IMG/VR virus record: IMGVR_UViG_3300020453_000595
Span: 1 to 59,107 of that record
Source: a virus
Reading direction: 5' to 3' (one strand)
Length of the DNA: 59,107 nt
Shown here: positions 1,949 to 38,960 of the stretch, in pieces
How positions within the stretch are numbered: the first letter of the stretch is position 1
Layout: every line of letters begins with the position of its first letter
Notes under the pieces: model-generated
Databases searched by the model: none
The model's input: the letters and a program-made list of their open reading frames with translations, nothing else
Told to the model about the DNA's origin: nothing
Translations under genes and position numbers: made by a program

Positions 1949-2179
1949 ATGGTCACCCCCGCAGAGGCGCTCGAGATTCTGGGCATCTCCGAAAAGACCC
2001 TCCAGCGTTGGCGCCACAGCGACAGGCTCATGCGTGGCGTCCACTACGTCCAGTACGGACCTAAGACAATTCGATATGACGCTGACTGGCTCGAGCGCTT
2101 CAGAGCTACAGGTGGTCGCGGCTCACACAAGCTTGATGTCGCTAATCACCTGAACTCAATGAAGCAATTAGCTCCATAG
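1949..2179 (+). CDS. Excisionase-like HTH DNA-binding protein
   Basis: About 76 residues with a MerR/excisionase-type winged helix-turn-helix: VTPAEALEILGISEKTLQRW, then a wing with GVHYVQYGPKTIRYD and a last helix DWLERFRAT. Proteins of this type direct tyrosine integrases toward excision. The gene converges on the integrase gene and overlaps its 3' end by 38 bases, which supports an Xis role. An ATG at 1916 would add eleven residues with little family character, so I prefer 1949. Confidence 0.65.
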   Translation: MVTPAEALEILGISEKTLQRWRHSDRLMRGVHYVQYGPKTIRYDADWLERFRATGGRGSHKLDVANHLNSMKQLAP

Positions 2180-5653: not shown

Positions 5654-6315
5654 CAAACACCTCTCAGCGTTGGACCTGGCAGGTACATCTTTCTGATTTT
5701 TTCGGCGTCATCCGGATATGCATTCATGAGCCGGTTGACATCGCCTGGCGTCAGGTCACGACGTTTCCGGCGAGCATCACCGCTTCTTCCGGTGATATCA
5801 AATGATGGATTACCAGCCACATACTCTGTGGCTCGGTTCATATCGTCACGCTTCTCTTGTTGCTCTCGAAAAAGGCGTCCGGGTTCACCGCCTTCGCCGA
5901 ACCTGAGAAGCTCCCGAAGATAAGCGCCATCGGCGACATTTTCTCCGTCTTCCAGCTGGATGACTTCAGCCTTGTCCCGCTCGGGCACGAACTCCATAGT
6001 CCGAGCCTCCGCAGTATCCCGTCCAGGGACAAACTCCATCGTCCGAAGCTGAGGCTCGATGGCACGGCCCATAGCTTTCAGCATGCCCTCGGCGATCCGG
6101 ACATCCATGCCCTGGTCCTGAGGCATACCCTGGGCAGCCTTCCCCATATAAACGACGACGTCCGGCTCAAGGTCCAGACCTTGGCCAGCCATCCGTCCAC
6201 CCCCAAAGGGTGAGATATCGGTATAAGTAGGCTGATTTGTCATCTCGTTGTAATTGACGCCATAAAGGCGACCATTACGAAATACACGATCGTGATATGG
6301 ATCTACCAAAGACAT
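5653..6315 (-). CDS. Unknown protein with internal repeat (220 aa)
   Basis: Begins MSLVDPYHDRVFRNGRLYGV. A tandem repeat TMEFVPGRDTAEAR / TMEFVPERDKAEV lies at about residues 92-118. The C-terminal part is charged (RRKRRDLTPGDVNRLMNAYP). There is no signal peptide or membrane span. It may be a virion component given its place at the head of the small-gene chain, but nothing identifies it. Confidence 0.6.
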   Translation of the reverse strand: MSLVDPYHDRVFRNGRLYGVNYNEMTNQPTYTDISPFGGGRMAGQGLDLEPDVVVYMGKAAQGMPQDQGMDVRIAEGMLKAMGRAIEPQLRTMEFVPGRDTAEARTMEFVPERDKAEVIQLEDGENVADGAYLRELLRFGEGGEPGRLFREQQEKRDDMNRATEYVAGNPSFDITGRSGDARRKRRDLTPGDVNRLMNAYPDDAEKIRKMYLPGPTLRGV

Positions 6316-6345
6316 CGCAAATAGAGCCTTTTTATATGGTCAATT

Positions 6346-6543
6346 CTAGAGTTTTTCACTATTCAATCCTTGCTCCAATACAGGTCTTAAGTGCTCTGCA
6401 ATTGGATAGTGGCGCAACAAAGCCCTCGCTTCACGCCTGACTTCACGAGGGATTCTTGGCGTCTCTTTGGTGTTGATGAGACGCAACAAGAAATCTCGAG
6501 TTGCCACCACAGCAGACACCTGCTGCGATGGGCTCGAGATCAT
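6346..6543 (-). CDS. BPSL0761-like small protein (65 aa)
   Basis: The pattern SSPSQQVSAVVATRDFLLRL...IPREVRREARALLRHYP matches a family of short bacterial and phage proteins, known to me as BPSL0761-like, with the typical LLRHYP ending. Function unknown. I start at ATG 6543, 14 bases after the upstream stop; a longer frame upstream has no family character. Confidence 0.6.
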   Translation of the reverse strand: MISSPSQQVSAVVATRDFLLRLINTKETPRIPREVRREARALLRHYPIAEHLRPVLEQGLNSEKL

Positions 6544-6556
6544 CCGCCTGGGACGA

Positions 6557-6775
6557 TCAGTCGACATAGACACTGATGATGTCCATGGTTTCGTGGAAAC
6601 AGGCGGTCTGCTCATCAACCGCTTCTTTGCCAATCTCTTTGCAGTGCTGCTCGTATAAGCCGGTGTAGGTCCCAAGCAGTCCGGGCTCGGCTTCATCCCG
6701 CTTGTAGAGCTTGTACAAGTAATCCATGTAGTCAGCCTTGTTCTGATCCTGCTGACACTGAGGTGACGTCCGCAT
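6557..6775 (-). CDS. Small acidic protein (72 aa), unknown
   Basis: MRTSPQCQQDQNKADYMDYL, then YTGLYEQHCKEIGKEAVDEQ and a helix ending DIISVYVD. Acidic, with three Cys residues. It appears to be the first gene of the leftward chain, divergent from the gene at 6877, so the leftward promoter should lie in 6776-6876. Confidence 0.5.
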   Translation of the reverse strand: MRTSPQCQQDQNKADYMDYLYKLYKRDEAEPGLLGTYTGLYEQHCKEIGKEAVDEQTACFHETMDIISVYVD

Positions 6776-7207: not shown

Positions 7208-7494
7208 CCTTCCCCGAAGACAAATCAGGGGAGATCACCCCTAAGAAAAAGGGAGAGAACAAGTTCGAGTGGGCCGATGAAGGCGTCTCGACTCTTGTTC
7301 GAGTGATCATTCTGGGTTGGGCAGGTGCAATCCTGACGCTGAACTATGTGACTATCCCTGGTATTCCTCAGAAGAATATCGATCCAACTTTCATAGCCAG
7401 CGTGTTTACGGGGACCCTTGCGACGTTCGGGGTTGTCCCCGCAAAGAAGAAGGACGATAACGCCAAGGACGACGACAAAAATTCCAAGGCCTGA
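7204..7494 (+). CDS. Holin-like membrane protein (96 aa)
   Basis: A charged N-terminus is followed by two likely membrane spans (about residues 31-50, VIILGWAGAILTLNYV; and about 62-80, FIASVFTGTLATFGVV) and a highly charged Lys/Asp C-terminal tail (KKKDDNAKDDDKNSK). Two spans with a charged tail and about 90-100 residues match small phage holins, which time lysis by perforating the inner membrane. The endolysin is far away (32.8 kb), so the call is tentative. Confidence 0.5.
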   Translation: MTFPEDKSGEITPKKKGENKFEWADEGVSTLVRVIILGWAGAILTLNYVTIPGIPQKNIDPTFIASVFTGTLATFGVVPAKKKDDNAKDDDKNSKA

Positions 7495-7496
7495 AC

Positions 7497-8009
7497 ATGA
7501 AAAGACTCATCGGCGCTGCAGTGGCCGCAACACTGTTGGCAGCACCAGCACAAGCCGACATCATTCACCGCATCTCTAGCAGTGTGCAACTGAATGTTGA
7601 GAGTGCTGCCTCTAATGCAACAAGAGTTCCCTCGGTCTACTCAGTGAGCGGGACGAACTTGACGACAACGGATGGGACAACTTCAGGAAACATCGGTCGC
7701 CTTGCGGCATTCTCTGCTGGCACAGCTCCTGGCTTTACTGGCACTACCGCCAGCGTGAAAGTTGCCGGAGAAGACTTTAGTTTTGCTGAGTCATACATCG
7801 AGGGTGACAAGCCTCATACCGGAAGTACTGTTTCTTCCGGCGTAATTAGCACCCTCCCAGTAATGGGCTCGACGATTACTTCGTCTGGGGGCGTTGCGGG
7901 GTCTTTGGCCGGCACAGTGGGAACCGACGGGGCACTCACCATCACGGCAGGGGGAGCTGGCACAACTGCCACGGGTCAGCACGTTTCGGAGCTAAGTATC
8001 TTCAACTGA
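7497..8009 (+). CDS. Secreted protein with FSFxESY motif
   Basis: A 170-residue protein. Clear signal peptide [20 protein letters not shown], then a Thr/Gly/Ser-rich beta-type sequence. The motif [12 protein letters not shown] near residue 97 is matched by ASFSFVESYSGPG in the secreted protein at 8314. Probably periplasmic or outer-membrane located. Its stop overlaps the ferredoxin start (TGATG), so the two are co-translated. Confidence 0.65.
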
Positions 8010-8299
8010 TGAAGCGCAGCATCACATTTCATAGCGAGAACGGCATCGAGTCGTTCGACTGCCCTGAAGAGGAATACATTCTCGACGCAGCAGAAGAGGC
8101 AGGTATTGCCTTGCCTTATTCCTGCAGGGCTGGCGCCTGCTGCTCCTGTGCAGCCAAGATCATTGCTGGTGAAGTTGATCAAAGCGATCAGTCATTTCTC
8201 GATGAGGATCAAATCGAGGCTGGCTATGTGCTTCTGTGCGTGGCCTACCCAAAGACTGACTTGGTCGTGAAGCCTGGCATTGAGGACGAATTGTACTGA
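8009..8299 (+). CDS. petF: Plant-type 2Fe-2S ferredoxin
   Basis: A 96-residue protein of normal plant/cyanobacterial ferredoxin length. The cluster ligands are exactly spaced: C39-x4-C44-x2-C47-x29-C77, in [13 protein letters not shown] and LLCVAYP. The C-terminal [16 protein letters not shown] also fits. It would carry electrons from photosystem I to reductases, for example nucleotide or bilin synthesis during infection; ferredoxin genes are known in marine cyanophages. An extra Cys (C45) is present in the cluster loop. Confidence 0.93.
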
Positions 8300-8313
8300 A
8301 CTGGGGTTAACCA

Positions 8314-8748
8314 GTGAAACACCTGTTATTTATTGGCGCTCTCCTGTTGTTTGCGGGCAGGGCGCACTCCGTTCCGGTGGTTCCGTCCTTCTCCATGGGG
8401 AAAATGACAACGAGGACCGAAACCACCCAGGAGACCACTGAGCTGATTCGCTCGATAGATTACAACACAGGTTGGTCATACGCAGTCTCTGGAACAGGGG
8501 TTGAATCGAGTACTGGAGATATCTCTGTCGACTCGCAATCTTCTTCCTTCCAGATCGACTCAGACACACAGGCTGGATGGACACAACTCAACATGAGCAA
8601 CAAGCCCACCTGGAGGCAGACAAATCCGGGGGCAAGTTTCAGCTTCGTCGAGTCCTACTCAGGACCAGGCGTATCGAACGTGACGTCGATCGACAGAAAA
8701 GTAACCACTCGAAGCGTCACCGATACCACAAGTATCTTTCAGCGCTAA
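8314..8748 (+). CDS. Secreted protein with FSFxESY motif (second copy)
   Basis: A 144-residue protein starting at GTG 8314, with signal peptide KHLLFIGALLLFAGRAHS. The mature part is Ser/Thr-rich and contains ASFSFVESYSGPG, similar to the motif in the protein at 7497, then SVTDTTSIFQR at the end. Likely exported; no enzymatic motif. It lies on the other side of the ferredoxin gene from its relative. Confidence 0.6.
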   Translation: MKHLLFIGALLLFAGRAHSVPVVPSFSMGKMTTRTETTQETTELIRSIDYNTGWSYAVSGTGVESSTGDISVDSQSSSFQIDSDTQAGWTQLNMSNKPTWRQTNPGASFSFVESYSGPGVSNVTSIDRKVTTRSVTDTTSIFQR

Positions 8749-10161: not shown

Positions 10162-10421
10162 CAGAAGATCGGCAGGCCTGACTTGACGGTGCCGCCTTTA
10201 GGGATGAGCTTCTCTTGGGACTCGAGCAGCTTGTCTTGCATGCCCACGAGATCTTTCTTGAAGTAATCGTATTCCTCTGTCAGCCTGCTTTCAAGTTGCA
10301 GAGCAAGCTCACTTTTTAGAAGATTGAACTTACCCGAAACAGCTCTGTACGCAAAGAAAACAACAAGGTTCAAAGCAATTAAATTGCCTAATACAATTCC
10401 TTTAAATAATATCTTCATCAC
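10161..10421 (-). CDS. Membrane-anchored coiled-coil protein (86 aa)
   Basis: One N-terminal membrane span (MMKILFKGIVLGNLIALNLV) then a charged coiled-coil helix (SELALQLESRLTEEYDYFKK, DKLLESQEKL). The shape resembles an i-spanin or Rz-like protein (one span plus periplasmic coiled coil), but there is no partner lipoprotein beside it. It overlaps the preceding adhesin gene by four bases. Confidence 0.5.
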   Translation of the reverse strand: MMKILFKGIVLGNLIALNLVVFFAYRAVSGKFNLLKSELALQLESRLTEEYDYFKKDLVGMQDKLLESQEKLIPKGGTVKSGLPIF

Positions 10422-11578
10422 AGAAGCCTTGCGTACTGAACAATTACGACCCCATCGCCGCCGAAGCCGCCAGTGTTGTAATTTGTTTGAAATGAAGTAG
10501 CGGCTGGAGTTAGGTAGTGGTACTCCGAGCGATAGTTGTAATAGCCGACACCACCACCACCGCCGGCGTTGCCGCCGTCTCCAGGGTTAAACGCGTAACT
10601 ACCGGCGCCGCCGCCGCCGCCTAGAAATCCCCCGTTGCCAGGGGAGCAGTAGTCGTTGATATCAGCGTTGGAGCCGTAGCCACCACCACCGCCACCAGGG
10701 CCACCACCACTGCCCTGTGTCGCGTTTCCGGCTGAGCTCTGGACAACCACCATTCCAGCAACGCCACCACCGCCGCCCATCAAAATTTCATTAGGGCCAA
10801 TCTGCAGTGGACCTTCCCCTGGATCTCTGGTCCGACCGACCGAGCCGGCGTAGGTAATGAAGTTGTAATAGCCACTTCCTCCAGTACCTCCTGTCCCAAG
10901 CAATCCATTACCGCCGTTTTCGGTTGTGTAATAGGAACTCGGGCTGATGCTTCGAAGGACTCTATTCATGCTGCCGCCGCCAGCACCACCGGTGTAATTT
11001 CCGTCGTTGCCCTGCGCACCGATACCGCCACCTCCACCACCGGCGTAGGTACTACCATCGCCACCCTTGAAACCGCTGCGATACCCGTAAGGAGCTGGTG
11101 CACTGCCACCACCACCACCACCGCTATTAGTCCCTGACGCGTAGTACTCAACGCCGCCTTGACCGCCACGTTGATTGGCATCACCTAGCAGGCCTAGACC
11201 GCCGATGCCGTATAGAGCGGCGCTTCCCTCGTTAGCTGTGTTGTTGTAACCAGAGTTGCCGCCAGTTGCAGAGCAATGGCTTCCAAAACTAGAAGTGCCG
11301 CCAATACCTGTATAGGAATGAGAGCCCTGGCCAATGGTGATTGTTTCAGTGGCCCCAAGACTGGAGACGTTAATCAGCTTGACGGCTAATCCACCGCCAC
11401 CGCCGCCGTGGGCTGGATTGCTGGAAGGGTGCCGATCACCGCCAGCACCGCCAGCGCCCCATACGTGAACAAGAATTGGCTTTGATTCGTCTATGTCTGA
11501 AGGCTTTGTCCATGTATACGATCCAGCTTTCGTATACATGTCATATTCATTGAACAAGTATTGCTTGAAATTTGACAT
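10418..11578 (-). CDS. Glycine-rich adhesin-like tail protein, type A (copy 1)
   Basis: A 386-residue protein. It begins MSNFKQYLFNEYDMYTKAGS, then TWTKPSDIDESKPILVHVWG, then a long Gly-rich region of about 330 residues with GGGGGG blocks separated by short aromatic loops, ending DGVVIVQYARLL. The FTWTKPxxI...ILVHVWGAGGxG...GGDGVVIVQY frame is that of phage glycine-rich tail proteins and resembles polyglycine sandwich folds at phage fibre tips that contact receptors. Variable loops between Gly runs would set host specificity. It is closest to the gene at 12809. Confidence 0.75.
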   Translation of the reverse strand: MSNFKQYLFNEYDMYTKAGSYTWTKPSDIDESKPILVHVWGAGGAGGDRHPSSNPAHGGGGGGLAVKLINVSSLGATETITIGQGSHSYTGIGGTSSFGSHCSATGGNSGYNNTANEGSAALYGIGGLGLLGDANQRGGQGGVEYYASGTNSGGGGGGSAPAPYGYRSGFKGGDGSTYAGGGGGGIGAQGNDGNYTGGAGGGSMNRVLRSISPSSYYTTENGGNGLLGTGGTGGSGYYNFITYAGSVGRTRDPGEGPLQIGPNEILMGGGGGVAGMVVVQSSAGNATQGSGGGPGGGGGGYGSNADINDYCSPGNGGFLGGGGGAGSYAFNPGDGGNAGGGGGVGYYNYRSEYHYLTPAATSFQTNYNTGGFGGDGVVIVQYARLL

Positions 11579-11583
11579 ATCAA

Positions 11584-12723
11584 TTAGAGCACTTTGTATT
11601 GAACAATGATTAGGCCATCACCGCCATGGCCGTGGTAACTCGAATTACCTACGCCTACGCTGCCACCGCCTCCAGCGTTCCCGCCATGACCGCCCTGGGC
11701 GTACTGGCAACCACCGCCGCCACCGCCAAGAATTCCGCCTAAGCCGGCGTTGATATACCAGCCAGTCGCAGCAACATCACCAAAACCACCACCACCGCCG
11801 CCTGGGCCGCCATTAGCACCAGGAGAAGTTGTAAAACCGGAAGACTGGGTGTAGCCACCGCCGCCTCCACCACCGCCGCCGCCGAAAAAGATTTCGTTGG
11901 GCGTGATTCGACCAGTGCCTCGACCGGGCTCAGCACTTTCGCAAGTATCTCCCCCGTAGCTGTAGTAACCGACGTAGAAGTTGGCACCTTGGCCACCAGC
12001 TCCGTCGATACCTTGACCGCCATTTCCTCCTGAGTAGTAAGAGACATTACTGCCATGGCCAGGACCCATGCTTCCGCCACCGCCGGTGCCGAAGTAATAA
12101 CCGTCGCCCCCGGCTCCACCAATACCGCCACCGCCGGTGCCGGCGTAGGAGCTGATGCAGTTGCCGCCTCTATACCCAGCAGTCTCTCCGTAGGGAGCAG
12201 GGGCAGATCCACCACCACCGCCACCAGTGTCAGAACCGCTTGCATAACGACCAGTACCACCAGTCCCGCCTCGCTGGTTCTTGTCGCCGTTCAGGCCAAG
12301 ACCACCGATACCGTAAATAGTTCCACTGCCCTCATTAGCAGTCTGGTTGTCACCGCTATTGCCCCCGGTAGCAGAGCAATGGCTACCGAAGCTAGTTGTC
12401 CCACCGATACCTGTTGCACTGGTCGAACCAGCGCCAATGGTCAACGTTTCTGTCGCGCCCAATGAGGAGACGTCGATGTATTTGACCGCTAGGCCACCAC
12501 CACCACCACCGTTGCCGATTCCACCAACGCTTGAGTCAGACCAGGTCCCAGATCCACCAGCGCCCCAGACGTGCACCAAAATTCTGTCGCCAGTAATTCC
12601 TGCAGGCTTTGTCCAGGTAATTGTGTCAGCCCAGTGAAAAACTTCGTATTGATTGAATTCGCCGGGGATGCCACCACCACCGCCGCCGCCGCCACCAGCA
12701 GATCCAGGAAACCTTCTACCCAT
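11584..12723 (-). CDS. Glycine-rich adhesin-like tail protein, type B (copy 1)
   Basis: A 379-residue protein. It starts MGRRFPGSAGGGGGGGGGIP, then EVFHWADTITWTKPAGI, ILVHVWGAGGSG and Gly-rich loops as in the type A genes, ending GDGLIIVQYKVL. The extra N-terminal MGRRFPGSAG segment defines type B and is almost identical in the gene at 13964. A proposed receptor-binding role rests on the Gly-rich architecture. Confidence 0.75.
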   Translation of the reverse strand: MGRRFPGSAGGGGGGGGGIPGEFNQYEVFHWADTITWTKPAGITGDRILVHVWGAGGSGTWSDSSVGGIGNGGGGGGLAVKYIDVSSLGATETLTIGAGSTSATGIGGTTSFGSHCSATGGNSGDNQTANEGSGTIYGIGGLGLNGDKNQRGGTGGTGRYASGSDTGGGGGGSAPAPYGETAGYRGGNCISSYAGTGGGGIGGAGGDGYYFGTGGGGSMGPGHGSNVSYYSGGNGGQGIDGAGGQGANFYVGYYSYGGDTCESAEPGRGTGRITPNEIFFGGGGGGGGGGYTQSSGFTTSPGANGGPGGGGGGFGDVAATGWYINAGLGGILGGGGGGCQYAQGGHGGNAGGGGSVGVGNSSYHGHGGDGLIIVQYKVL

Positions 12724-12808
12724 CGAAAATCAATAGCCCTAAACGACAGATCTGGCTGAAGCCATTTGCTTAGTTACAGGTTAGCTAGTTCTGCCTGATG
12801 ACTAATAA

Positions 12809-13960
12809 TTAGACGAGACGAGCGTATTGAATAATGACCACTCCATGGCCAGCTTTTCTGACCTCATTGATTGGCCTACCGGTGTGTTGTTGGTAGTAGC
12901 CGATTCCACCGCTGCCGCCAGCATTACCACCATTCCCGGAATCGTTGTAGCTAGAAGCGCCACCGCCGCCGCCCAGAAAACCGCCGTCACCAGCGCAAGA
13001 GTAAGCCCCAGTTGTTGTGTACTTGCCAATGCCACCGCCACCACCACCTGGAGCACCGCAGCCAGCGGGTGAAGCTCCTCGCTCTGAACTGTCGTACCAG
13101 TAGCAATGTCCGCTACCACCACCGCCGTAAATACCGATTTCGTTGGGTGTGAGAATTAAATCACCCTGAGCTTGAGTTGATTTATTGACCGATCCACCGC
13201 CGTATGAGATGTAGCTGTTACCAGGAGAAGATGGAGCTCCACCGAAGCCAAGTAAGCCATTTCCTCCTGGAGCTGGCTGATAGGAACTCGCTGGTGATTG
13301 CGATTTGCTTGGGACACTCATTGTCCCGCCACCGCTACCGCCCGTATAATTACCTTGCTCACCAGCAGCTCCAATACCTCCGCCTCCACCGCCGGCGTAA
13401 GTAGAGCCGTTGCCACCGTTGAACCCGTCCCGATATCCGTAAGAAGCTGGCGCGCTACCACCACCACCACCGCCACAATTGTTCGAATCAGAGTAATAAC
13501 CAGTGCCACCGGTTCCACCTCTGCGGTTTACGTCACCACCAGAGCCCATTCCGCCTATTCCATAATTAGCGGTTCCATCGGCACCACCATTTGAGCCACC
13601 ATTCGAGGTCTCACAAATACCACCATTACCTCCAGTTGCTGAGCAATGGCTACCGAAACTAGATGAACCGCCCTGTGACTGACTGTTCGTTCCGTTGTTG
13701 GATCTAGCACCAACAGTGACAGTCTCTGTTGCACCCAAAGCAGAGACATCGATCAACTTGACGGCCAATCCACCGCCACCGCCGCCATTGCAAGCAGTGT
13801 TGCTGTTGTAATAGGCATCATGGCCTGTGCCACCTGCACCCCATACATGCACGAGGATTGGCTTGGAATCATCAATATCTGATGGCTTTGTCCAGGTGAA
13901 TGTCCCAGCTTCCCGGTAGAAATCAAACGTGTTGTAGAAATAGCCTTTGAAGTTTGTCAT
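12809..13960 (-). CDS. Glycine-rich adhesin-like tail protein, type A (copy 2)
   Basis: A 383-residue paralogue of the gene at 10418: MTNFKGYFYNTFDFYREAGT, TWTKPSDIDDSKPILVHVWG, and SFGSHCSATGGNGG. The Gly-rich loops differ strongly from copy 1 in the outer part, as expected for diversified binding tips. It ends HGVVIIQYARLV. It is separated from the type B gene downstream by an 85-base gap that contains no gene. Confidence 0.75.
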   Translation of the reverse strand: MTNFKGYFYNTFDFYREAGTFTWTKPSDIDDSKPILVHVWGAGGTGHDAYYNSNTACNGGGGGGLAVKLIDVSALGATETVTVGARSNNGTNSQSQGGSSSFGSHCSATGGNGGICETSNGGSNGGADGTANYGIGGMGSGGDVNRRGGTGGTGYYSDSNNCGGGGGGSAPASYGYRDGFNGGNGSTYAGGGGGGIGAAGEQGNYTGGSGGGTMSVPSKSQSPASSYQPAPGGNGLLGFGGAPSSPGNSYISYGGGSVNKSTQAQGDLILTPNEIGIYGGGGSGHCYWYDSSERGASPAGCGAPGGGGGGIGKYTTTGAYSCAGDGGFLGGGGGASSYNDSGNGGNAGGSGGIGYYQQHTGRPINEVRKAGHGVVIIQYARLV

Positions 13961-13963
13961 TTC

Positions 13964-15133
13964 CTAGAACCTCACTCTGTACTGGATAATCACGAGGCCA
14001 GGGCCGCCCTTACCAAATCCAATGCCGGCACTCGCGCCAAAGCCGCACCCGCCACCGCCTCCTGCATTGCCGCCATCGCCGGCATACGCACTGGAGCTAG
14101 CCCCGCCGCCGCCGCCCAGAAGGCCACCGTTGCCTGCTCTCCAGCCGTGGTCGCCCAAGCCATTTGTTTGAGCTACTCCACCACCGCCACCACCTGGGCC
14201 ACCATGACCGCCGTCACGACCGTTGTTACCAGAGCTATAGGTCGATCCTGACCCACCGGCCCCGCCGCCACCGCCGAGCATGATTCGGTTCGGCTCGAGG
14301 ATTAAGCCTCCTGAGCCGCTTTGGCCAGCTCGAGGAATACCGCCCTGGTAGGTAGTGAAGGCGCCATATCCATTGGTGGCACTTCCATGGCAACCAAACA
14401 GACCTGCACCGCCATTGCCAGGAGTGTCGTAGTTCCCTTGTGAGCCGTGGCCTTCGCTCATGCTTCCGCCACCACCACCGCCGGGATAGGAGTACCAACC
14501 ACCGCCTTCACCACCGATTCCAGCGCCGCCACCACCGCCATTAGTCGTATAGGCATTGCCGCCCGGATAGCCATCTACATGGCCATATGGCGCTGGGGCA
14601 GAACCACCACCACCACCACCGGCATTTGTGGTGCTTGCGAAGTAAAAGCCGCCGCCGCGACCGCCACGTCGATTGACATCACCTAGCAGGCCTAGACCGC
14701 CGATGCCACGGTTTGCAGCGCCATTACTGCCGCTATTACTACCTTCGTTCGAAGTTTCGTTATCGCCTGAATTACCACCAGACGCTGAGCAATGGCTACC
14801 AAAGCTCGAAGTGCCACCCAGGCCATTAATTGTAGTAGCGCCACTACCAATAGTGATTGTCTCAGTAGCGCCTAATGAGCTGTTGTCGATGTATTTCATG
14901 GCGTAGCCGCCACCACCGCCACCCCATCCCTCACTGGCGGTTCCGCCACGGGCGTTGTGACCAGCACCGCCGGCACCCCACACATGAACGAGAATCCTGG
15001 AGCCGCCAATTTTGGTCGGCTTAGTCCAAGTAAATGATCCAGACGTCTCAAACATCTTGACGACGTTGAACTCGCCGATGGAATCACCACCACCGCCACC
15101 ACCACCAGCAGATCCAGGAAACCTACGTCCCAC
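13964..15133 (-). CDS. Glycine-rich adhesin-like tail protein, type B (copy 2)
   Basis: A 389-residue paralogue of the gene at 11584, with the same MGRRFPGSAGGGGGGG start, a GSFTWTKPTKIGGSRILVHV segment and an end GPGLVIIQYRVRF. It is the first adhesin gene transcribed, three bases from the type A copy downstream and six bases after the gene at 15140. Confidence 0.75.
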   Translation of the reverse strand: MGRRFPGSAGGGGGGGDSIGEFNVVKMFETSGSFTWTKPTKIGGSRILVHVWGAGGAGHNARGGTASEGWGGGGGGYAMKYIDNSSLGATETITIGSGATTINGLGGTSSFGSHCSASGGNSGDNETSNEGSNSGSNGAANRGIGGLGLLGDVNRRGGRGGGFYFASTTNAGGGGGGSAPAPYGHVDGYPGGNAYTTNGGGGGAGIGGEGGGWYSYPGGGGGGSMSEGHGSQGNYDTPGNGGAGLFGCHGSATNGYGAFTTYQGGIPRAGQSGSGGLILEPNRIMLGGGGGAGGSGSTYSSGNNGRDGGHGGPGGGGGGVAQTNGLGDHGWRAGNGGLLGGGGGASSSAYAGDGGNAGGGGGCGFGASAGIGFGKGGPGLVIIQYRVRF

Positions 15134-26335: not shown

Positions 26336-27478
26336 TCAATATACGAAAGAGTAAGCAACGGTAATGAAGTCGCGGTTAAGCACTTCAAAACCAGCAAACA
26401 ACGACCAGATCATGATAATGAATCTAGAAAAATCGTCGTTATTGTTGAGGAGAATCTGGGCGTTATTACCGCCAATGCCAACACCAACTGCCTGAGGACC
26501 AAAGAAGATCATCGGAGCAGCAGTGGTCACAGCATTAGTGACAGAAGCATCACTAATGGTGACTTGCAGAGACTTCTCTGCAAGGTTGGTTGATTCAAAC
26601 CAACGGACGCCCTCAAAGAGGAAGCCAGTAGGCATCACAGGCTGACCTGCGACGAAACCTGCTTGCCCATAAGCGGGACCCATGCCATAGAAGAAGTTGG
26701 CGTTGGGAGCCTGCTCAGGTTGCAGGGGGTTGACCATGCCATTACCCGCATATCGGGCAATTTCACGGAACGCATCGTTCTGACGAAGATGCATCATTGC
26801 CGTGGGATCGGCAATACAGCGGTAGTAACCGTCAGCGAACGTAGGAACGTTGCGCTTACGCATGTCCTTGACCACCTGCAGCAGGTCGGTCTTGACATCG
26901 AACTTCGCAGATTCGCCGGCTGCGTAGTTCAGGATCGGAGCAGAAGATGCCTTGGCCTTGCTCAGAGGGTAATAGTAACCGCCCTGGGTGCCGTCAGCTT
27001 CGCCGTTTGCCTCGGCCTTAAACAGTTCGTCAGCGAAGACGCGATCGCGCCAACGACGATAATCATCAAGCAGGGTCAGAGAGCCGATTGACTGGTGGAA
27101 AACATTCAGGTTTCCAGTGTCAAGCAGCAGGCGCTGTGCAGTCAGCAGGGTTTCGCGAGCAACCTTGAAGGTACTGGGCGCAGTAGCATCAGTCGGATCA
27201 GCAGGACCCGTATATTCCTTCAGGTTGACGAGAACCTTATCTTTTACGATCGAGCGGCTAGATGACGTGCCAAGAGTCTGGTCAGCAGTACGCTCTCGGG
27301 AATCCTTATTGCCAGGATTACCCCAGAAGCGGTAACGATCAAGCTGAACAGTTTGGCCGGGTTGTTTCGCGAAATCGTGAACAACCACGGGCTCTACGGC
27401 CATCTCGATGATGTAACCGGGATGGGGGCGGTAAAGCTCGGCACCTAGCAGCTTGGGAAAGTCATTATCAATCCACAT
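26336..27478 (-). CDS. Major capsid protein
   Basis: A 380-residue protein from the ATG at 27478 (MWIDNDFPKLLGAELYRPHP). HK97-fold-like layout: an N-terminal arm, E-loop region TVQLDRYRFWGNPGN near residue 48, the spine helix ARETLLTAQRLLLDTGNLNV, a P-domain segment GYYRCIADPTAMMHLRQNDA, then RWFESTN and MIFFGPQAVGVGIGG, ending NRDFITVAYSFVY. The sequence style suggests an N4 gp56-like capsid group, but that is inference. An upstream in-frame extension to 27577 has no coding character. Together with the decoration-like gene it forms a terminator-bounded operon. Confidence 0.8.
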   Translation of the reverse strand: MWIDNDFPKLLGAELYRPHPGYIIEMAVEPVVVHDFAKQPGQTVQLDRYRFWGNPGNKDSRERTADQTLGTSSSRSIVKDKVLVNLKEYTGPADPTDATAPSTFKVARETLLTAQRLLLDTGNLNVFHQSIGSLTLLDDYRRWRDRVFADELFKAEANGEADGTQGGYYYPLSKAKASSAPILNYAAGESAKFDVKTDLLQVVKDMRKRNVPTFADGYYRCIADPTAMMHLRQNDAFREIARYAGNGMVNPLQPEQAPNANFFYGMGPAYGQAGFVAGQPVMPTGFLFEGVRWFESTNLAEKSLQVTISDASVTNAVTTAAPMIFFGPQAVGVGIGGNNAQILLNNNDDFSRFIIMIWSLFAGFEVLNRDFITVAYSFVY

Positions 27479-27511
27479 GGGATGATATTCCTCAGCTGTA
27501 AGGGTGATATG

Positions 27512-27528
27512 GCACGCAAACTGCGTGC
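27512..27528. promoter_or_regulatory. Perfect inverted repeat with three-base loop in capsid leader
   Basis: GCACGCA (27512-27518), loop AAC, TGCGTGC (27522-27528). It lies 34 bases upstream of the capsid ATG and also upstream of the divergent LAGLIDADG gene. It may stabilise the capsid mRNA 5' end, serve as an operator, or be part of a hairpin promoter. Confidence 0.5.
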
Positions 27529-27566
27529 TGACTCTTAATATAAGGAAAATTTCTAGGGAAAGCTTT

Positions 27567-28274
27567 TTGGATGTCACGGATGTCCGGGGGCTGCTCGGGC
27601 TGCTCCTCGTTGACGGGAGTTTGGTGTATTACCGCAGTCCCTCCGGTGGTTACATACAGATGACAATTACGGCCGGGATAAAAGAATCGGCCTATCTCGA
27701 GGAAAAAGTCGCTGAATTCAAGTCTTTTTTCCCTACGCGTGCAGAGATTGCCCCTTACAGCACGGCGAAAAGGGCAAACGGTAAGCAGACCACAGTCCTT
27801 CGTTTTAGGGCTTCTACCAATAAACTCCGACCGCTCTATAACCTGCTTTACCCAGCAGGAGAGAGACAGATAACCCAGCCCGTCCTGGACATTCTTGGAG
27901 CGCAGGCCGCCGCCTGGTGCTGGGCCGAGAGCGCGGTCATCGGGAAACGGGGCGGAGCAAAACTTTCTCGAGTTGGCAATACACGAGTAGAGGCCATGCG
28001 CCTGAACAACTGGTTCGAGCTGCTGACTGGCGCACGTGGGGAGGTGAAGGACTACCGCAAGCGTCCAAGGATTTCATTCAGCCCCGAGCAGACAAAGAAG
28101 ATCCAGGACGCTCTGATCCAATACGCACCGAAGAGCCGCATTCACCTATTCACTGGAGACGTTCCCGATGTCAGCGCAATTCGTAGTGCGCGTACTGAGC
28201 TATTGCTTGGGAGTGGGCACGCTAAGTCTGAAAGGTCGGAGGCAGAGGCCCTGGTTGGAAATCATCAGACCTGA
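27567..28274 (+). CDS. LAGLIDADG-type homing endonuclease
   Basis: A 235-residue protein from the TTG at 27567. The first helix VRGLLGLLLVDGSL is a LAGLIDADG motif with the acidic residue retained. It is followed by YIQMTITAGIKESAYLEEKV (strand then helix), RFRASTNKLRPLYNLLYPAG, and a second-half motif near residues 113-130 (ILGAQAAAWCWAESAVIGK). Such free-standing nucleases cut capsid or polymerase genes of related phages lacking the insert and spread by repair. It lies directly beside, and divergent from, the capsid gene. Start choice is uncertain; a GTG at 27504 is also in frame. Confidence 0.7.
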   Translation: MDVTDVRGLLGLLLVDGSLVYYRSPSGGYIQMTITAGIKESAYLEEKVAEFKSFFPTRAEIAPYSTAKRANGKQTTVLRFRASTNKLRPLYNLLYPAGERQITQPVLDILGAQAAAWCWAESAVIGKRGGAKLSRVGNTRVEAMRLNNWFELLTGARGEVKDYRKRPRISFSPEQTKKIQDALIQYAPKSRIHLFTGDVPDVSAIRSARTELLLGSGHAKSERSEAEALVGNHQT

Positions 28275-32652: not shown

Positions 32653-32846
32653 TCGTCTCGCAGGTAAGACACTTCCATCATCGCCGTCCTGAAGATGCGC
32701 CGCAGGTGCCAGAGCATCTCCTGCTCTTCCCTTTCTGCAGCGGGAGAGCCAGGCCACATCTTGAAATGAAACTCGATTGACGCTGCGATCTGCGCAACCT
32801 CGTCTGGCGTCAGCTCAAAGACCAGCCTGGTGCTGTCATCCTTCAT
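32649..32846 (-). CDS. Small helical protein (65 aa) downstream of endolysin
   Basis: MKDDSTRLVFELTPDEVAQI, FHFKMWPGSPAAEREEQEML, HLRRIFRTAMMEVSYLRDD. Soluble and helical. It shares TAATG with the endolysin stop, so the two are co-translated. Function unknown. Confidence 0.55.
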   Translation of the reverse strand: MKDDSTRLVFELTPDEVAQIAASIEFHFKMWPGSPAAEREEQEMLWHLRRIFRTAMMEVSYLRDD

Positions 32847-34018
32847 TAGTACGACCAGATCGTGCTGGGCTTGGCCCCCGCCCGAGCGTGAAACTCTCCG
32901 TTATCGCGGGTGTCTATATGCACAAACCCCTTGTGGCAGCCATCACCAAGGCCGCCGGTCCAACGCTTTGCCAACCATTTGTAGAAGACTGAGCAGGATT
33001 CGCCTACTGGGTAGATGTCGAGAGCCATTCCTTTGGTGTGATAAGAGCCAGGGTGCCCACCAACTCGCGCATTGACCGGCTCAGGACGGAAGCCACTGGT
33101 GATTCCGAGCGGACCACCCCAGGCCTCTCGGATTAGGCCGAATTGACCGCTGATATAAAACAACTCTTCTTCTTCCTTGCTTCCCTCGATCGGCCGTCTT
33201 CGCTTGTCATATGACAACAGCTCTCCGACGGTGACATATGGGCTTACATGAGCACTGAAGTCACCCCAATCCACATCTTCCTCTACGTCCAGACTCGGAC
33301 GCGCTGTTACCTCTTGCCAGTGCGGCGAATAAATAGCCCATCGCTCGTTTGAATCCGCAAGCGTTACCCACGCGTGCGAATCCTCTGCCATGGCCTCGAA
33401 CTTCACAACATCGATAATCTCTCCTGCCTCGAACCCCTGCCTACCGTCGTTCGACAAATAAGAATTTTCTATAGCCGCCTTCTTTAAGAAGGTTGGCAGT
33501 AAACATTTGAATTTCATTTCTCCGTCATCCTCACACTGCCATAAACGCCCCTCTTGACGCCTACGAATCTTTAAGCCTTCAAGTTCTACTCCATTTGCAT
33601 AAACATAGCGATTCAACGCGTCCGGCATCTCGCTATAAGCACGTGGCTTCAATGCACCTTCACTGAGAACCTTGCTTATGGTTTCGAATTCAGGAGCGCC
33701 GTAGAAGTTTGGACCTAAGTTCCATCCAAAGCTTATGAGTACTGCTTGCCTCCTAGGCCCCAAGGCGTCCCATCCAGGGATTCGGTATAGAGGAGGAATA
33801 TAGTCGTCACTAAGCATCTCCTCTAGATAGCGCTGGCAAACGGGCTTACTGCAAACATCGCCCATCCGAACAGGCGTCCCATTTGGGTAGCGAGTCAATC
33901 CAGCGCAGATTGTCGGGACACCAACTGCATCTAAATATGCTTCTGTTTCTACGCCTTCAAAACCTTCAATCAGACTGATCGCCGTCGCTAGGGCCAGGGG
34001 GGTTATCAGTGGGTCCAT
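32846..34018 (-). CDS. Endolysin: lysozyme plus peptidase M15 domains
   Basis: A 390-residue protein. The N-terminal domain (about 1-165) is a T4/P21-type lysozyme: catalytic Glu at about 21 in IEGFEG, then EAYLDAVGVPTICAGLTRYP, and FGWNLGPNFYGAP later. The middle (about 180-280) is SH3-like and may bind cell wall. The C-terminal domain (about 300-390) is a peptidase M15: TSGFRPEPVNARVGG, SYHTKGMALDI and GFVHIDTR supply the zinc ligands His, Asp and His. It would cut both glycan strands and peptide bridges at lysis. I chose ATG 34018; a TTG six codons upstream is in frame. Confidence 0.88.
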   Translation of the reverse strand: MDPLITPLALATAISLIEGFEGVETEAYLDAVGVPTICAGLTRYPNGTPVRMGDVCSKPVCQRYLEEMLSDDYIPPLYRIPGWDALGPRRQAVLISFGWNLGPNFYGAPEFETISKVLSEGALKPRAYSEMPDALNRYVYANGVELEGLKIRRRQEGRLWQCEDDGEMKFKCLLPTFLKKAAIENSYLSNDGRQGFEAGEIIDVVKFEAMAEDSHAWVTLADSNERWAIYSPHWQEVTARPSLDVEEDVDWGDFSAHVSPYVTVGELLSYDKRRRPIEGSKEEEELFYISGQFGLIREAWGGPLGITSGFRPEPVNARVGGHPGSYHTKGMALDIYPVGESCSVFYKWLAKRWTGGLGDGCHKGFVHIDTRDNGEFHARAGAKPSTIWSY

Positions 34019-34235
34019 CGCCGTAAATCGCTGCAAATCGTGGACTTGCCGATACCGCGTCTTCTTTGCCTTCCCAAATGTTCAGACCGTGCTCAATAGC
34101 AGCTGGCGGACTCAACCCTTTGGCACGTAAAATTTCAATCTGCTCGATCACGCCGTCAACGTGATCAGCAGACTTGGAATGCTTTGAGCACGCCGACAGC
34201 TCACTAAAAATGTCATCGCTGCCGGCGAGACGCAC
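33966..34235 (-). CDS. Small protein overlapping endolysin start (89 aa)
   Basis: Begins at a GTG: RLAGSDDIFSELSACSKHSK, then helix VIEQIEILRAKGLSPPAAIE and an acidic Pro-rich tail. The C-terminal 17 codons overlap the endolysin gene. There is no membrane span or convincing lipobox, so it is not an obvious spanin. Function unknown. Confidence 0.45.
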   Translation of the reverse strand: MRLAGSDDIFSELSACSKHSKSADHVDGVIEQIEILRAKGLSPPAAIEHGLNIWEGKEDAVSASPRFAAIYGDGPTDNPPGPSDGDQSD

Positions 34236-34636: not shown

Positions 34637-35680
34637 TCAGCCTTCGGAAACCAGAACCTTGCTGCGCAAAGCGTCGGGGCCGGCCTGGGAGAGCATTTGC
34701 CAAGCAAGGGCAGGATTGCGCTCGCTGATGGCACTGAAATCAGACCAGAAGTCGTCAGGGCGACCGGATGCCTGAACGCCAGGCTGAGGCATGTCGATCT
34801 CAGGGCGCCGATAAGCAGGAGCCTGAGGAGCAGGTGCTGCCTGAGGAGCAGGTGCTGCCTGAGGCTGAGCAAAGCGAACTTCGTTGGCTTCGATCTCAGC
34901 GCGCAGACGATCCTCTGCGGTCTCAGTGGGGTATGGACCCTCAGGACCGTAGAAGTCTTCGACGTATGCAGCCAACATGTCGGGGTCGGTCAGCATGACG
35001 TGATAGGCAGCGTTGTCTTCCGCTGCTGCGTCGATCACTTGCTGGGCGGCCTGAAGACCACCGTCCAGTTGCTCAAGTTGCTGCATCACCTCAGCAGTTT
35101 GCTGAGCCTGTGCCAATAGAGCGTCCTCGACTACGCAGCTGTACCTGTTAAGTAGAGCTGGCGCCTCCAATCCGAAGTGCTGGAGGACTTCAAGACTTTC
35201 GTCGCTGACGCTTGCGAGATACTCGTCGCTCCCGGGTTGCGTCTGCGCGCTGCTGTAGGTCGGCGCCTGTGTCGGGGAGTACGCCGGCGTTGCTTGGGGA
35301 ATTGAGGTCTGCAGCCCCGATACGGAAGGAGCCGCTTGGTACTGCACCGGAGCCGAAACCTGCCATGCCGCGTCCTGTGAAGGGGCTGCCTGTGGGGTCG
35401 GAGTTGAGTAGGCTGCCTGCGGTTGGGAGCTCCGCGTCGCGCTCAGACTGTCGCTCAGTCGCTCGAACGCCTGCTGCCATGGGTTGGCCTGGGGCGCCGC
35501 CTGGGGAACCGCCGTCTGTTGGTAGCTGGCCTCCGGCTGCGGCGCCGAAGGAATCTGGTACGAAGGTTGGGCGCTCTGGGCCGGAGCTGATTGGTAAGCC
35601 TGCGTCGGCGCGGGCGCGCTCGATGGGATCGAGGCCTGCGGGATCGCTTGTGCCTGTTGCGTCTGAATACTGTCCTGCAT
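34637..35680 (-). CDS. Capsid assembly scaffold protein
   Basis: A 347-residue protein. Residues 1-155 are Pro/Gln/Ala-rich and probably disordered but include a helix NPWQQAFERLSDSLSA. The region 155-265 is helical and acidic (SDESLEVLQHFGLEAPALLN, EDALLAQAQQTAEVMQQLEQ, MLTDPDMLAAYVEDFYGPEG). A final Pro/Ala linker leads to a C-terminal helix ALAWQMLSQAGPDALRSKVL, the usual capsid-binding end. This layout fits a scaffold that leaves the prohead. Its first 491 bases overlap the portal gene in another frame, a very long overlap. Confidence 0.72.
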   Translation of the reverse strand: MQDSIQTQQAQAIPQASIPSSAPAPTQAYQSAPAQSAQPSYQIPSAPQPEASYQQTAVPQAAPQANPWQQAFERLSDSLSATRSSQPQAAYSTPTPQAAPSQDAAWQVSAPVQYQAAPSVSGLQTSIPQATPAYSPTQAPTYSSAQTQPGSDEYLASVSDESLEVLQHFGLEAPALLNRYSCVVEDALLAQAQQTAEVMQQLEQLDGGLQAAQQVIDAAAEDNAAYHVMLTDPDMLAAYVEDFYGPEGPYPTETAEDRLRAEIEANEVRFAQPQAAPAPQAAPAPQAPAYRRPEIDMPQPGVQASGRPDDFWSDFSAISERNPALAWQMLSQAGPDALRSKVLVSEG

Positions 35681-37418
35681 AAGTCAACTCACGCTTGAGG
35701 AAATCAAGTGCGCGATAGATGTAAGGGGTTAAATCAAGCTTCGGATCCGCAAGCAGCGGTAAGTCGGGTGCCTGCGGATGTGGAACCTGACGCATGTTTT
35801 CGATAAGCGTCAGGAATGTGCCAAGACTCTGTTGAGTGGCTTGGGCCATACGGAATGGATAGCCACTGAGCATTGCGCTTCGCTCTTCGTCCGTTTTGTC
35901 AGGGAACAAGTAACGGAGAGCCTCGATCGAATTAACGCCGAGTTCTTGAAGGTTTCGGACAACAATACTTGAGTTAAGTATATCCTCTGTGCCGTCTTCA
36001 AAGACGGGTCCTTTCCATCTCCATTCGATCTTGCGATCGCCATCAGGTATAAGGCCTACAACTCCCTCAGGCAGAGCACGGGACTGAATGGCATTGCCAA
36101 TCTCAACCTCCAGTGTTCCCTCGTATTCCTTGGAAATTGCCTGGTGAGCGTTGACAGCCTCTTCAAACAAAACTTGCTCAGGGAAGTCCTCACGAATAGG
36201 AGCAGGGGGACGCTGCAGGCCAATCGCAGCTGCGAAAGATTCCCGGAAGATCTTTTCTTCGTTGAAGATGATCAGCGACATCAACTTACACAGGCCGTAA
36301 GTCAGAAGCCCCCGACAACGGCGCGTGGCAGAAGTAGCTGCGCGACCGTATAGAGACTTGATCTCATACGCAGTAGCGCCAGCCGTAATACCTAGTTCGT
36401 CTACACCACCAAGCGCTGTACGAATCTCTTCTCGGTACTGACGTGCATAAAGGTTTTGGTCACCTGAAACAGCATCAGGGGTGATGTATGCAGCACGGTC
36501 AGTGGCTTCGATGTTTGCGATGACACGAGGCACTTTGAAGCCACCACCCGCTGCACCAGAAATCGGCGAGCTAACACGGGTCGACGGGCGATTGGCCGCA
36601 TAGAAACCTGCCTGGGAGCTGATCGTCGGACGCATGCCCTCGTCGTCACCGCTGTCCACCAGGTCGTGCTTAGGACGACTGGAGATCAGCGTCGGGTTCC
36701 CAAAGAACGTGATGTTGGTGCGGATGTTCTTGACGAGGTCGTCGTGAGTGACGATCTGTTCTGCGAGCCAGTCGAACTCGCCACTTGCGTCCATCCCTGT
36801 GGAACGCATGTTGTTGAAAGACTCAACTGCTGGGATGAAGCCCAGGCTGTTCGTCAGCGTGCGGGTCTTGTTCTGAGAGAACGCCAGGCTCTGTGCGCTG
36901 GCATCAAATGAAGGCTTTTCAGTGGTGATGGTCTCCTTGATCTCATCACGCCTGACCCGAAGCTTCACGTACCGATCAGACCCGCCCTGGAGAGTCGAGG
37001 TAGCTGCAGGAGCGTTGATGGTGTCGCGGACAGTAAACGAATAGATCAGCTCGATCTCCTCGAGCTCGCCCATTGCGTCGTAGTAAGCACGGTAGTTATC
37101 CGCGCTGAACCACATAATCCGATACGTGTCGCGGATTGGCCTGAAATAAAACAAACCCTTCCCGTCAATCAGGAAGTCATCGACGACTCCTTCAAGGCGC
37201 GTATCAATCTCGTTCTCTTCAATCAGCCCTGACAGGAATTGCTTCCTGAAGCCATAAGTATCCTGCGCCGGATAAAACTCAAGGCCTTGACGCAGCATGA
37301 ACAGTTTCATCTGTGAAAGATGACTGTTCACGATCATCGTGTCAGTGCCTGATCCACCGTCCCGCTTTCTGGCCGCTTCGAGAATGCGGCGGAAACGGTC
37401 CTGAGTTCCCTGGGTCAT
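35190..37418 (-). CDS. Portal protein
   Basis: A 742-residue protein. Early residues RILEAARKRDGGSGTDTMIV, then FYPAQDTYGFRKQFLSGLIE and DGKGLFYFRPIRDTYRIMWF are typical of a portal wing/clip region. The middle has INAPAATSTLQGGSDRYVKL and YAANRPSTRVSSPISGAAGG. Next come ELGITAGATAYEIKSLYGRA and LPEGVVGLIPDGDRKIEWRW. The last 160 residues are Pro/Gly/Ser-rich (GLPISSGPERPTFVPDSFGA) and coincide with the overlap with the scaffold gene. Length is close to long N4-type portals, which is a weak hint. It forms the dodecameric DNA channel at one capsid vertex, and lies ten bases after the terminase stop. Confidence 0.82.
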   Translation of the reverse strand: MTQGTQDRFRRILEAARKRDGGSGTDTMIVNSHLSQMKLFMLRQGLEFYPAQDTYGFRKQFLSGLIEENEIDTRLEGVVDDFLIDGKGLFYFRPIRDTYRIMWFSADNYRAYYDAMGELEEIELIYSFTVRDTINAPAATSTLQGGSDRYVKLRVRRDEIKETITTEKPSFDASAQSLAFSQNKTRTLTNSLGFIPAVESFNNMRSTGMDASGEFDWLAEQIVTHDDLVKNIRTNITFFGNPTLISSRPKHDLVDSGDDEGMRPTISSQAGFYAANRPSTRVSSPISGAAGGGFKVPRVIANIEATDRAAYITPDAVSGDQNLYARQYREEIRTALGGVDELGITAGATAYEIKSLYGRAATSATRRCRGLLTYGLCKLMSLIIFNEEKIFRESFAAAIGLQRPPAPIREDFPEQVLFEEAVNAHQAISKEYEGTLEVEIGNAIQSRALPEGVVGLIPDGDRKIEWRWKGPVFEDGTEDILNSSIVVRNLQELGVNSIEALRYLFPDKTDEERSAMLSGYPFRMAQATQQSLGTFLTLIENMRQVPHPQAPDLPLLADPKLDLTPYIYRALDFLKRELTYAGQYSDATGTSDPAGLDPIERARADAGLPISSGPERPTFVPDSFGAAAGGQLPTDGGSPGGAPGQPMAAGVRATERQSERDAELPTAGSLLNSDPTGSPFTGRGMAGFGSGAVPSGSFRIGAADLNSPSNAGVLPDTGADLQQRADATRERRVSRKRQRRKS

Positions 37419-37427
37419 AGTTCTATG

Positions 37428-38960
37428 TTAGTTCCACTCAATGTGTGCTTTACCTCTGCGCATAAGCCCTTGCACCACGATATTCAATGAGTCAGCACAG
37501 TCATCGTGTGGTGAGTGTCCGAAATTGACGATTTCGTCCACCATGCAGCTGAAGTCTCTGTATTTGTTGAATAAGATTTTTTTATGCTCAAACAGACCCA
37601 TAATTCCTCTCAGTCTGGCGAGCTTGTCGCCACGGAACCCCTTCACCGGGCTAATGGAGAGGTTGTAGAGCTGCCATTCATTAAAGAGAATCCGCTTGAG
37701 GTCGCCCTCAAAAGATTTCTGATAGGCGACCACCTCTGGCCAAATGGTGACGGGTGACTGGCTCCTGAAGTACTGGCCTTCGTCATTCACTTCAAGCAAG
37801 TTCCATTCGACCAGGAGTTCGCACAAAGCCTCGATCTTGTCGAGGTTGCCCATCGACCTCATGCGTCGGTAGTCAATGACGTAGACCTTGTCGCCCACCC
37901 GACCAGCCAGGGTGAACACGGTCCAGTCGTTTCTCTCGCTCATGCCAGCAGAGAGATCAATGCCTACCCCGATGGTGTCGTAGTCATCAGGGACCTCAGC
38001 CTTGACAAACAGCTCAGGAGATATACCTAGTTCGGTAGATCGCACTGGCTGGTTGAGGTATTGGTAGCTGAACGCCACCCGATCATCCGCCTGAAGCTTG
38101 AGTAGGTACTTAGCTCCCCACATCTCAGGCCAATAGCTCTTGGGCCGGCCGTCGTCGTCGTAGCTAAGAGCTGACTGGGTAATGCACTTCCACCCCTTCT
38201 TCTCAGTGAAGATCGTGGCAAACAGATCGTCGAAGTGAAACCTGGTGCCCAGGGCAATTGCTCGAGCGCCCTGGAACATGGTCGGAACAATCACGTTCGT
38301 CCAGTTCGTCTCCATCTCCCGGCGAATATCCGGGTTGGCGATACTGGCCGCGCTCTTAATCGCGTCATCAACGACGATCAGCGACGAGCGTTTCGACGTG
38401 ATCGTCCCCTTAAGACCTGCGCAGGCAACCGTAAAAGCATCCTCACCCCTAATATCCACCTCCGCAAAATCCCAATCAATCGACCAGAGTTCGTCCGACG
38501 TACGCATCTTGGATAGTCGTACGCACGGAAATATCTCCTGATATTCCTTCGAGCAGATGAGGTTCTTAATCGCCGCGCTCTTGTTGCGCGCAACGTCGAC
38601 GTTGTACGAGACATAAAGGATCCTCAGAAGCTTCTTAGCGAGCGCGTGGCGGCCGATAAGCCACCCGAGCAATAAACCCAGCACGGTGGACTTGGCGCTC
38701 CCTCTGGGGCTCAGGAGGCAGGTATTAGGGCCTGCAATGTCCAGCAGGTGCTCGTTGCTTTGACCCGTAAGAAAAACCTTATGCCAATCCCTCATATGAC
38801 GGGCTGGCTTCTTGCCCATCAGCTCACAGAAGTAGGCAAAGCTGTCACGCGCTTTGATGACGTGAGGCGGAAGCTCTACCTCGATCTGCTTCTTGACGAT
38901 CGCCTTGGCTGCGGCCTTTGCAGACCGCATCTTGGCTTGTGAGATTGAGCTGCCTGCCAT
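37428..38960 (-). CDS. terL: Terminase large subunit
   Basis: A 510-residue protein. The ATPase domain has a Walker A-like loop LLSPRGSAKSTVLG (about 82-95), a Walker B stretch SSLIVVDDAI (about 192-201) and a likely coupling motif ALGTRFHFDD (about 236-245). The nuclease domain has acidic sites GVGIDLSAG (D335), VIDYRRM, and SPHDDCADSLN near the end. It drives DNA into the prohead and cuts it. Upstream are a SLOG protein and a helical protein that might be the small subunit; the portal follows directly. Confidence 0.92.
   Translation of the reverse strand: MAGSSISQAKMRSAKAAAKAIVKKQIEVELPPHVIKARDSFAYFCELMGKKPARHMRDWHKVFLTGQSNEHLLDIAGPNTCLLSPRGSAKSTVLGLLLGWLIGRHALAKKLLRILYVSYNVDVARNKSAAIKNLICSKEYQEIFPCVRLSKMRTSDELWSIDWDFAEVDIRGEDAFTVACAGLKGTITSKRSSLIVVDDAIKSAASIANPDIRREMETNWTNVIVPTMFQGARAIALGTRFHFDDLFATIFTEKKGWKCITQSALSYDDDGRPKSYWPEMWGAKYLLKLQADDRVAFSYQYLNQPVRSTELGISPELFVKAEVPDDYDTIGVGIDLSAGMSERNDWTVFTLAGRVGDKVYVIDYRRMRSMGNLDKIEALCELLVEWNLLEVNDEGQYFRSQSPVTIWPEVVAYQKSFEGDLKRILFNEWQLYNLSISPVKGFRGDKLARLRGIMGLFEHKKILFNKYRDFSCMVDEIVNFGHSPHDDCADSLNIVVQGLMRRGKAHIEWN

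Follow-up and report, generated by a model that had tools for sequence, protein, structure and literature searches.

A 491-nucleotide overlap read in two frames between the portal gene and a probable scaffold gene of tailed phages related to Synechococcus phage S-EIV1

Results

Organization of the Portal Locus

The DNA analyzed here, called the window in the following, is the whole stretch of 59,107 nucleotides of the IMG/VR virus record IMGVR_UViG_3300020453_000595. The features relevant to this work, all on the minus strand, are listed below.

37428–38960, minus strand: terminase large subunit gene (phrog_38, E = 2.6e-72; PF17289)
35190–37418, minus strand: portal protein gene, 742 aa, with a folded body (about residues 1–610) and a disordered tail up to residue 742
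35681–35960, minus strand: stretch of the portal body with reduced synonymous variation and no conserved third ORF
34637–35680, minus strand: second ORF of 347 aa with an ATG start, encoding a probable head assembly protein of the scaffold type, as judged from its pI, the helices predicted by AlphaFold2 and gene order
35678–35680, minus strand: ATG start codon of the second gene (TTATGCAGGAC) as read in the window clade, with an in-frame TGA two codons upstream
35190–35680, minus strand: dual-coding overlap of 491 nt, in which portal codons from about 580 to 742 correspond to scaffold codons 1–163
35438–35485, minus strand: NPWQQAFERLSDSLSA, conserved predicted helix of the second protein within the overlap
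35315–35341, minus strand: YQAAPSVSG, another conserved island in the overlap, read in the scaffold frame, with A117 and P118 invariant and Y114 and Q115 nearly so
35193–35228, minus strand: basic C-terminus of the portal protein (RRVSRKRQRRKS), an island of per-site conservation in the overlap
26336–27577, minus strand: major capsid protein (MCP) gene (phrog_1357, E = 2.7e-18)

The first ORF matched phrog_20475 of the category 'head and packaging' (E = 8e-180), and the terminase large subunit gene lies directly upstream, which is the gene neighborhood expected for portals. Moreover, all 50 PDB matches listed by Foldseek for the low-confidence AlphaFold2 model were phage portals (best E = 1.6e-8), and this predicted fold confirms the portal identity put forward in a preliminary description of the window. 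A sequence search of the PDB yielded no match for either the portal or the second protein. The second ORF is read in the +1 frame relative to the portal gene, and both frames are free of stop codons throughout 35190–35680, precisely as first described. By comparison, the remaining same-strand gene borders examined in the window overlap by only 1–4 nt. In the portal frame the overlap encodes the disordered tail, beginning directly after the last conserved helix of the body.

Outside this locus, the window contains an integrase-like ORF (2142–3737, minus strand; weak match to PF00589) near one end of the record, which points to either a mobile segment or a temperate phage. It also encodes four paralogous Gly-rich proteins of 379–389 aa in tandem (10418–15133, minus strand), possibly adhesins or tail fibers, and has an endolysin-like ORF in which a lysozyme domain (PF00959) is fused to a peptidase M15 domain (PF08291) (32846–34036, minus strand).

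Both Frames Are Open in Relatives

Relatives were collected by scanning viral contigs and genome contigs, and they fell into three groups, namely the window clade, the clade of Synechococcus phage S-EIV1, and a set of intermediate loci, to which a clade with GTG as start codon of the second gene belongs. A search with the portal in 50,697 phage records recovered S-EIV1 as the sole annotated relative, and no outgroup lacking the overlap was found. Some related contigs (L128, L130, L131, and L132–L137) had been binned in metagenome-assembled genomes of archaea and diverse bacteria (Euryarchaeota, Rhodobacteraceae, Crocinitomicaceae, and others), probably as binning contamination.

The window sequence by itself is weak evidence for dual coding, since the second frame stayed open in 8–15% of trials when synonymous portal codons were re-drawn and since the antisense frame is open too. 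Among the relatives, the second frame was open across the entire overlap of 443–635 nt in 205 of the 206 loci whose contig includes the portal stop, which are spread over the three clades and include S-EIV1, with portal identities down to 44%; the portal frame was likewise open in 205/206. Interrupted homologues, named in the preliminary description as the finding that would speak against it, were thus absent save for one contig (L073). This contig lacks about 56 nt that are present in L017, to which it is otherwise 99.9% identical and in which both frames are intact; a defective copy or the collapse of a repeat is the probable cause. No other frame was conserved open over the whole overlap among the relatives compared: in a first set of 75 loci including S-EIV1, the second frame was open in 74, the third in none and the antisense frame in six. 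The antisense ORF at 35212–35682 (plus strand, 156 aa), considered as a third gene, was on this account attributed to chance.

Purifying Selection in Both Frames

Following the approach of OLGenie, substitutions were sorted into four classes (nonsynonymous or synonymous in each frame) and counted for independent sister pairs, using a home-made approximation of this type of method; the ranges given in parentheses are block bootstraps over columns. For the second frame, dNN/dNS amounted to 0.43 (0.34–0.54) in the window clade (26 pairs), 0.31 (0.23–0.40) in the S-EIV1 clade (35 pairs) and 0.52 (0.41–0.63) in the GTG clade (15 pairs), as compared to 0.80–1.13 for the control, i.e., the second frame in the non-overlapping part of the portal gene. 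The corresponding dNN/dSN values for the portal frame were 0.56 (0.46–0.66), 0.53 (0.35–0.75), and 0.58 (0.45–0.73). When the scaffold was taken as reference, the portal frame gave 0.54 in the overlap and the pseudo-portal frame in the non-overlapping part of the scaffold gene gave 2.14. Additionally, portal dS, mostly 0.7–0.9 outside the overlap, dropped to 0.11–0.31 across it. As judged from these substitution patterns, purifying selection acts on both frames, neither of which is passive, and since the ratios in each frame indicate such selection, both products appear to be maintained. The codon-level analysis over homologues proposed in the preliminary description thus bore out its view that both frames are in real use.

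The conserved residues within the overlap fall into islands in both frames. In the second frame, P67, W68, and A71 were invariant among 37 sequences including S-EIV1, and AlphaFold2 predicted a helix for residues 67–80 with the pattern NPWQxAF..LSxSLS, so that the helix-like segment NPWQQAFERLSDSLSA noticed at first sight appears to be real. In the portal frame, R732, V733, and R740 of the basic C-terminus were invariant in 37 portals, and further islands (GPxRPxFVPD, RQxER, and GSLL) are conserved. These findings bear on the notion that function within the overlap is confined to the second frame and that the portal tail is a useless, tolerated read-through. The tail is disordered and variable in length, and portal dN/dS climbs from about 0.05–0.2 in the body to 0.53–0.58 in the tail, as such a notion would have it. 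However, the portal-frame ratios are well under 1 and far under the pseudo-frame control, the portal frame is open in all relatives but one, and the islands as well as the basic C-terminus are conserved; a useless tail is therefore very unlikely.

Codon usage was inspected as a clue to the relative age of the two frames and to which of them may have overprinted the other. It favored neither frame in the window clade and mildly favored the portal frame as the older one in the S-EIV1 clade. Simulations suggest 3' extension of the upstream gene as the commoner general route to overlaps (PMC3887535).

Internal Start Site

Within each clade, the start codon of the second gene occupies one alignment column in all loci; four loci (L071, L075, L076, and L079) have ACA in place of ATG, followed in frame by GTG as the next codon. 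Thus, a start column is conserved in every clade, and the strength of the Shine–Dalgarno sequence varies between clades. In the S-EIV1 clade, AAAAGGAGATGAGTTATG was read in all 80 loci, providing a strong Shine–Dalgarno sequence embedded in portal codons; the Shine–Dalgarno sequence AAAAGGAG was invariant (80/80), and among sites internal to the portal gene its duplex of −10.5 kcal/mol ranks at the 1st percentile. The intermediate/GTG group has a moderate Shine–Dalgarno sequence (median −7.7 kcal/mol) and the window clade a weak one (median −4.5 kcal/mol, close to background). The Shine–Dalgarno sequence is conserved in two of the three clades.

A fusion of portal and scaffold by programmed ribosomal frameshifting would likewise make use of an overlapping +1 frame on the same strand, an arrangement known from frameshift pairs like lambda G/GT. 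Against this speak the separate, conserved start codon of the second frame, which an in-frame stop precedes by a few codons, and the Shine–Dalgarno sequence, which is invariant in one clade; frameshifting is therefore extremely unlikely.

An annotation artefact has to be weighed as well. The second gene might start past the portal stop, in which case the upstream frame would be open as a side effect of the GC-rich, low-complexity codons of the portal gene. This is how the gene appears in GenBank: in S-EIV1, the annotated CDS of 134 aa begins 23 nt past the portal stop, and 80/81 S-EIV1-clade sequences retain its start, the methionine at scaffold codon 193. The chance openness under synonymous re-coding of the window sequence would also fit, and long annotated co-directional overlaps are mostly errors of this type: in a survey of 338 prokaryotic genomes, all those of at least 60 bp were judged to be annotation errors and the longest real overlap was 56 bp (PMC2478687), which at the same time agrees with the initial remark that an overlap as long as the present one is rare. 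In contrast, three clades show selection at the amino acid level in this upstream frame, together with a loss of synonymous freedom in the portal, and both start and Shine–Dalgarno sequence are conserved. Moreover, the window clade has no conserved alternative ATG or GTG in the scaffold frame between codon 1 and codon 229, and thus none at the portal stop, which disfavors a scaffold start past 35190, the other finding that the preliminary description had named as contrary to its claim. The artefact has next to no chance of being the correct explanation. A chance ORF was rejected on the grounds of its openness in the relatives and of the two-frame selection with its controls, and on the comparative sequence evidence the overlap is a genuine and ancient dual-coding region. 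Given the conservation of Met193 in the S-EIV1 clade, an additional short form of the second protein could also exist there.

Synonymous Constraint Upstream of the Internal Start

Synonymous variation is reduced not only in the overlap. In the portal body at 35681–35960, dS was 0.27–0.49 compared to 0.7–0.9 elsewhere in the portal gene, and in each of the three clades synonymous entropy revealed a dip that spans about 260–370 nt ahead of the internal start. Codons such as TTA GGT GTT GAT varied hardly or not at all among 58 sequences of the S-EIV1 clade. A third ORF was discarded as the cause, there being no conserved alternative ORF. In the window clade, near-fixed synonymous codons form an inverted repeat (AGTGGCT...AGCCACT) at 35837–35869, which coincides with part of the dip and for which a hairpin is predicted (z of about −5 on a column-shuffled null). 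As a conserved RNA hairpin it was rejected, since it is confined to the window clade, is absent in the other clades and shows little covariation. The same applies to a promoter-like TATACT/inverted repeat near 35964–35981, which is fixed in the window clade and not in the S-EIV1 or GTG clades; a promoter scan gave nothing above chance. The dip might possibly reflect an element that controls initiation at the internal start; alternatively, it could stem from local recombination or from selection on codons.

The Second Protein as a Probable Scaffold

The N-terminal half of the second protein is disordered and rich in Pro, Gln, Ala, and Ser, and its C-terminal half is helical and acidic, the protein having a pI of 4.1. 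AlphaFold2 placed helices at residues 67–80 and 160–344, with residues 1–152 otherwise disordered, in a model of low confidence (pLDDT 55). An acidic, largely helical and partly disordered make-up, as predicted here, is usual for scaffolds. In S-EIV1-type contigs, the portal gene is followed by the second gene, a short gap with one small gene, and the MCP gene; in most of these loci the MCP gene lies a few hundred to about 1500 bases past the second gene, which is thus located between portal and MCP, the classic place of a scaffold gene. In the window, the MCP gene is found about 7 kb beyond the second gene and does not adjoin it. Searches with the second protein returned no sequence match to known families or scaffolds and no fold match in PDB and BFVD, the model being poor and scaffolds diverging fast.

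On account of gene order, acidity and the disordered/helical make-up, the second protein is likely to be a head scaffold. The scaffold identity given in the preliminary description therefore holds as a reasonable inference from these traits and does not extend to homology with known scaffolds. Alternatively, with dual coding being real, the second protein might be another head protein, e.g., a portal-associated internal or ejection protein, for which the absence of homology to scaffolds, the distant MCP in the window and the presence of a second small gene between the second gene and MCP in S-EIV1 could be adduced. Since gene order, acidity, the helical C-terminus and the disordered arm are all usual scaffold traits, we regard this alternative as possible, if rather doubtful.

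Discussion

Here, the overlap between the portal gene and the gene of a probable scaffold was analyzed by comparison of relatives. We consider it very probable that two head-assembly genes are involved, that the second is translated by independent internal initiation and that two disordered tails are dual-coded. Following this, we propose that ribosomes on the late mRNA would translate the portal gene through to its stop at 35190, while other ribosomes would start independently in the +1 frame at an ATG, or in one clade a GTG, that lies within the portal gene just past the last helix of the portal body, to yield a scaffold-type protein. In the portal frame, the shared DNA would thus encode a disordered, basic-ended C-terminal tail and in the other frame a disordered N-terminal arm that is rich in Pro and Gln and includes a single conserved helix (NPWQxAF..LS). 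Initiation would occur by direct internal entry rather than by frameshifting. Dual coding is probably tolerated because low-complexity, disordered tails need little structure to be kept in either frame. The overlap might also fix the ratio of portal to scaffold, as put forward in the preliminary description. It might further be speculated that a cis element in the constrained 260–370 nt sets the rate of scaffold initiation and that the basic-ended and acidic tails bind each other and nucleate the prohead, so that partners required in a fixed ratio would be locked by shared DNA; this extension we hold to be unlikely.

Overlapping genes of phages are known, as are scaffolds encoded in overlapping frames in Microviridae. 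What is added here is an overlap of about 500 bp between co-directional genes, for which selection is supported quantitatively in three clades of a widely distributed aquatic virus group; in the literature searched, no description of a co-directional portal/probable-scaffold overlap of about 500 nt was found for tailed phages. In one ocean survey, 3.3% of the mapped cyanophage signal came from the genus-level group of S-EIV1 (PMC5332604).

Among the closest known systems is phiX174, the proteins B and D of which are scaffolding proteins. Overlapping genes were first discovered in this phage, with B within A and D with E (reviewed in PMC8227390). As in phiX174, a head-assembly protein would be read from the second frame of another gene. 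However, the Microviridae are small, unrelated ssDNA phages, whereas the phages studied here are dsDNA tailed phages of roughly 60–90 kb, in which the overlap is terminal rather than nested and in which the 1–4 nt overlaps at other gene borders give no obvious sign of packing pressure. In lambda, the scaffold Nu3 arises by internal initiation inside another head gene, C. Internal initiation inside a head gene is also proposed here, but Nu3 is read in the frame of C and shares its protein sequence, whereas the second gene described here is in the portal +1 frame and is not nested in the manner of Nu3. The lambda Rz/Rz1 pair provides a further precedent for a long out-of-frame overlap in tailed phages, with co-expression and internal initiation; unlike the portal/scaffold overlap, it concerns lysis genes and is shorter.

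The nearest cultured relative, Synechococcus phage S-EIV1 (KJ410740), has the same portal (47% identity) and the same second gene, with an overlap of 554 nt. In its GenBank record the second gene is reduced to its last 134 codons (6327–6728 of locus L001), which renders the overlap invisible; with the start supported by the comparison (5751), the gene spans 5751–6728 and encodes 325 aa. The annotation thus misses more than half of the probable scaffold, which illustrates that gene calling can truncate a second gene of this kind. Independently of the overlap, the MCP gene of this phage (L001:7248–8474; 60784–62010 of the record) appears to be misannotated: the record shows a minus-strand CDS at 7248–8009 and the plus strand only for the last part (8004–8474), and an intact plus-strand ORF of 385 aa at 7317–8474 is 68% identical to the MCP of the window. 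As S-EIV1 is in culture, the proposed dual coding of portal and second protein is directly testable in this phage.
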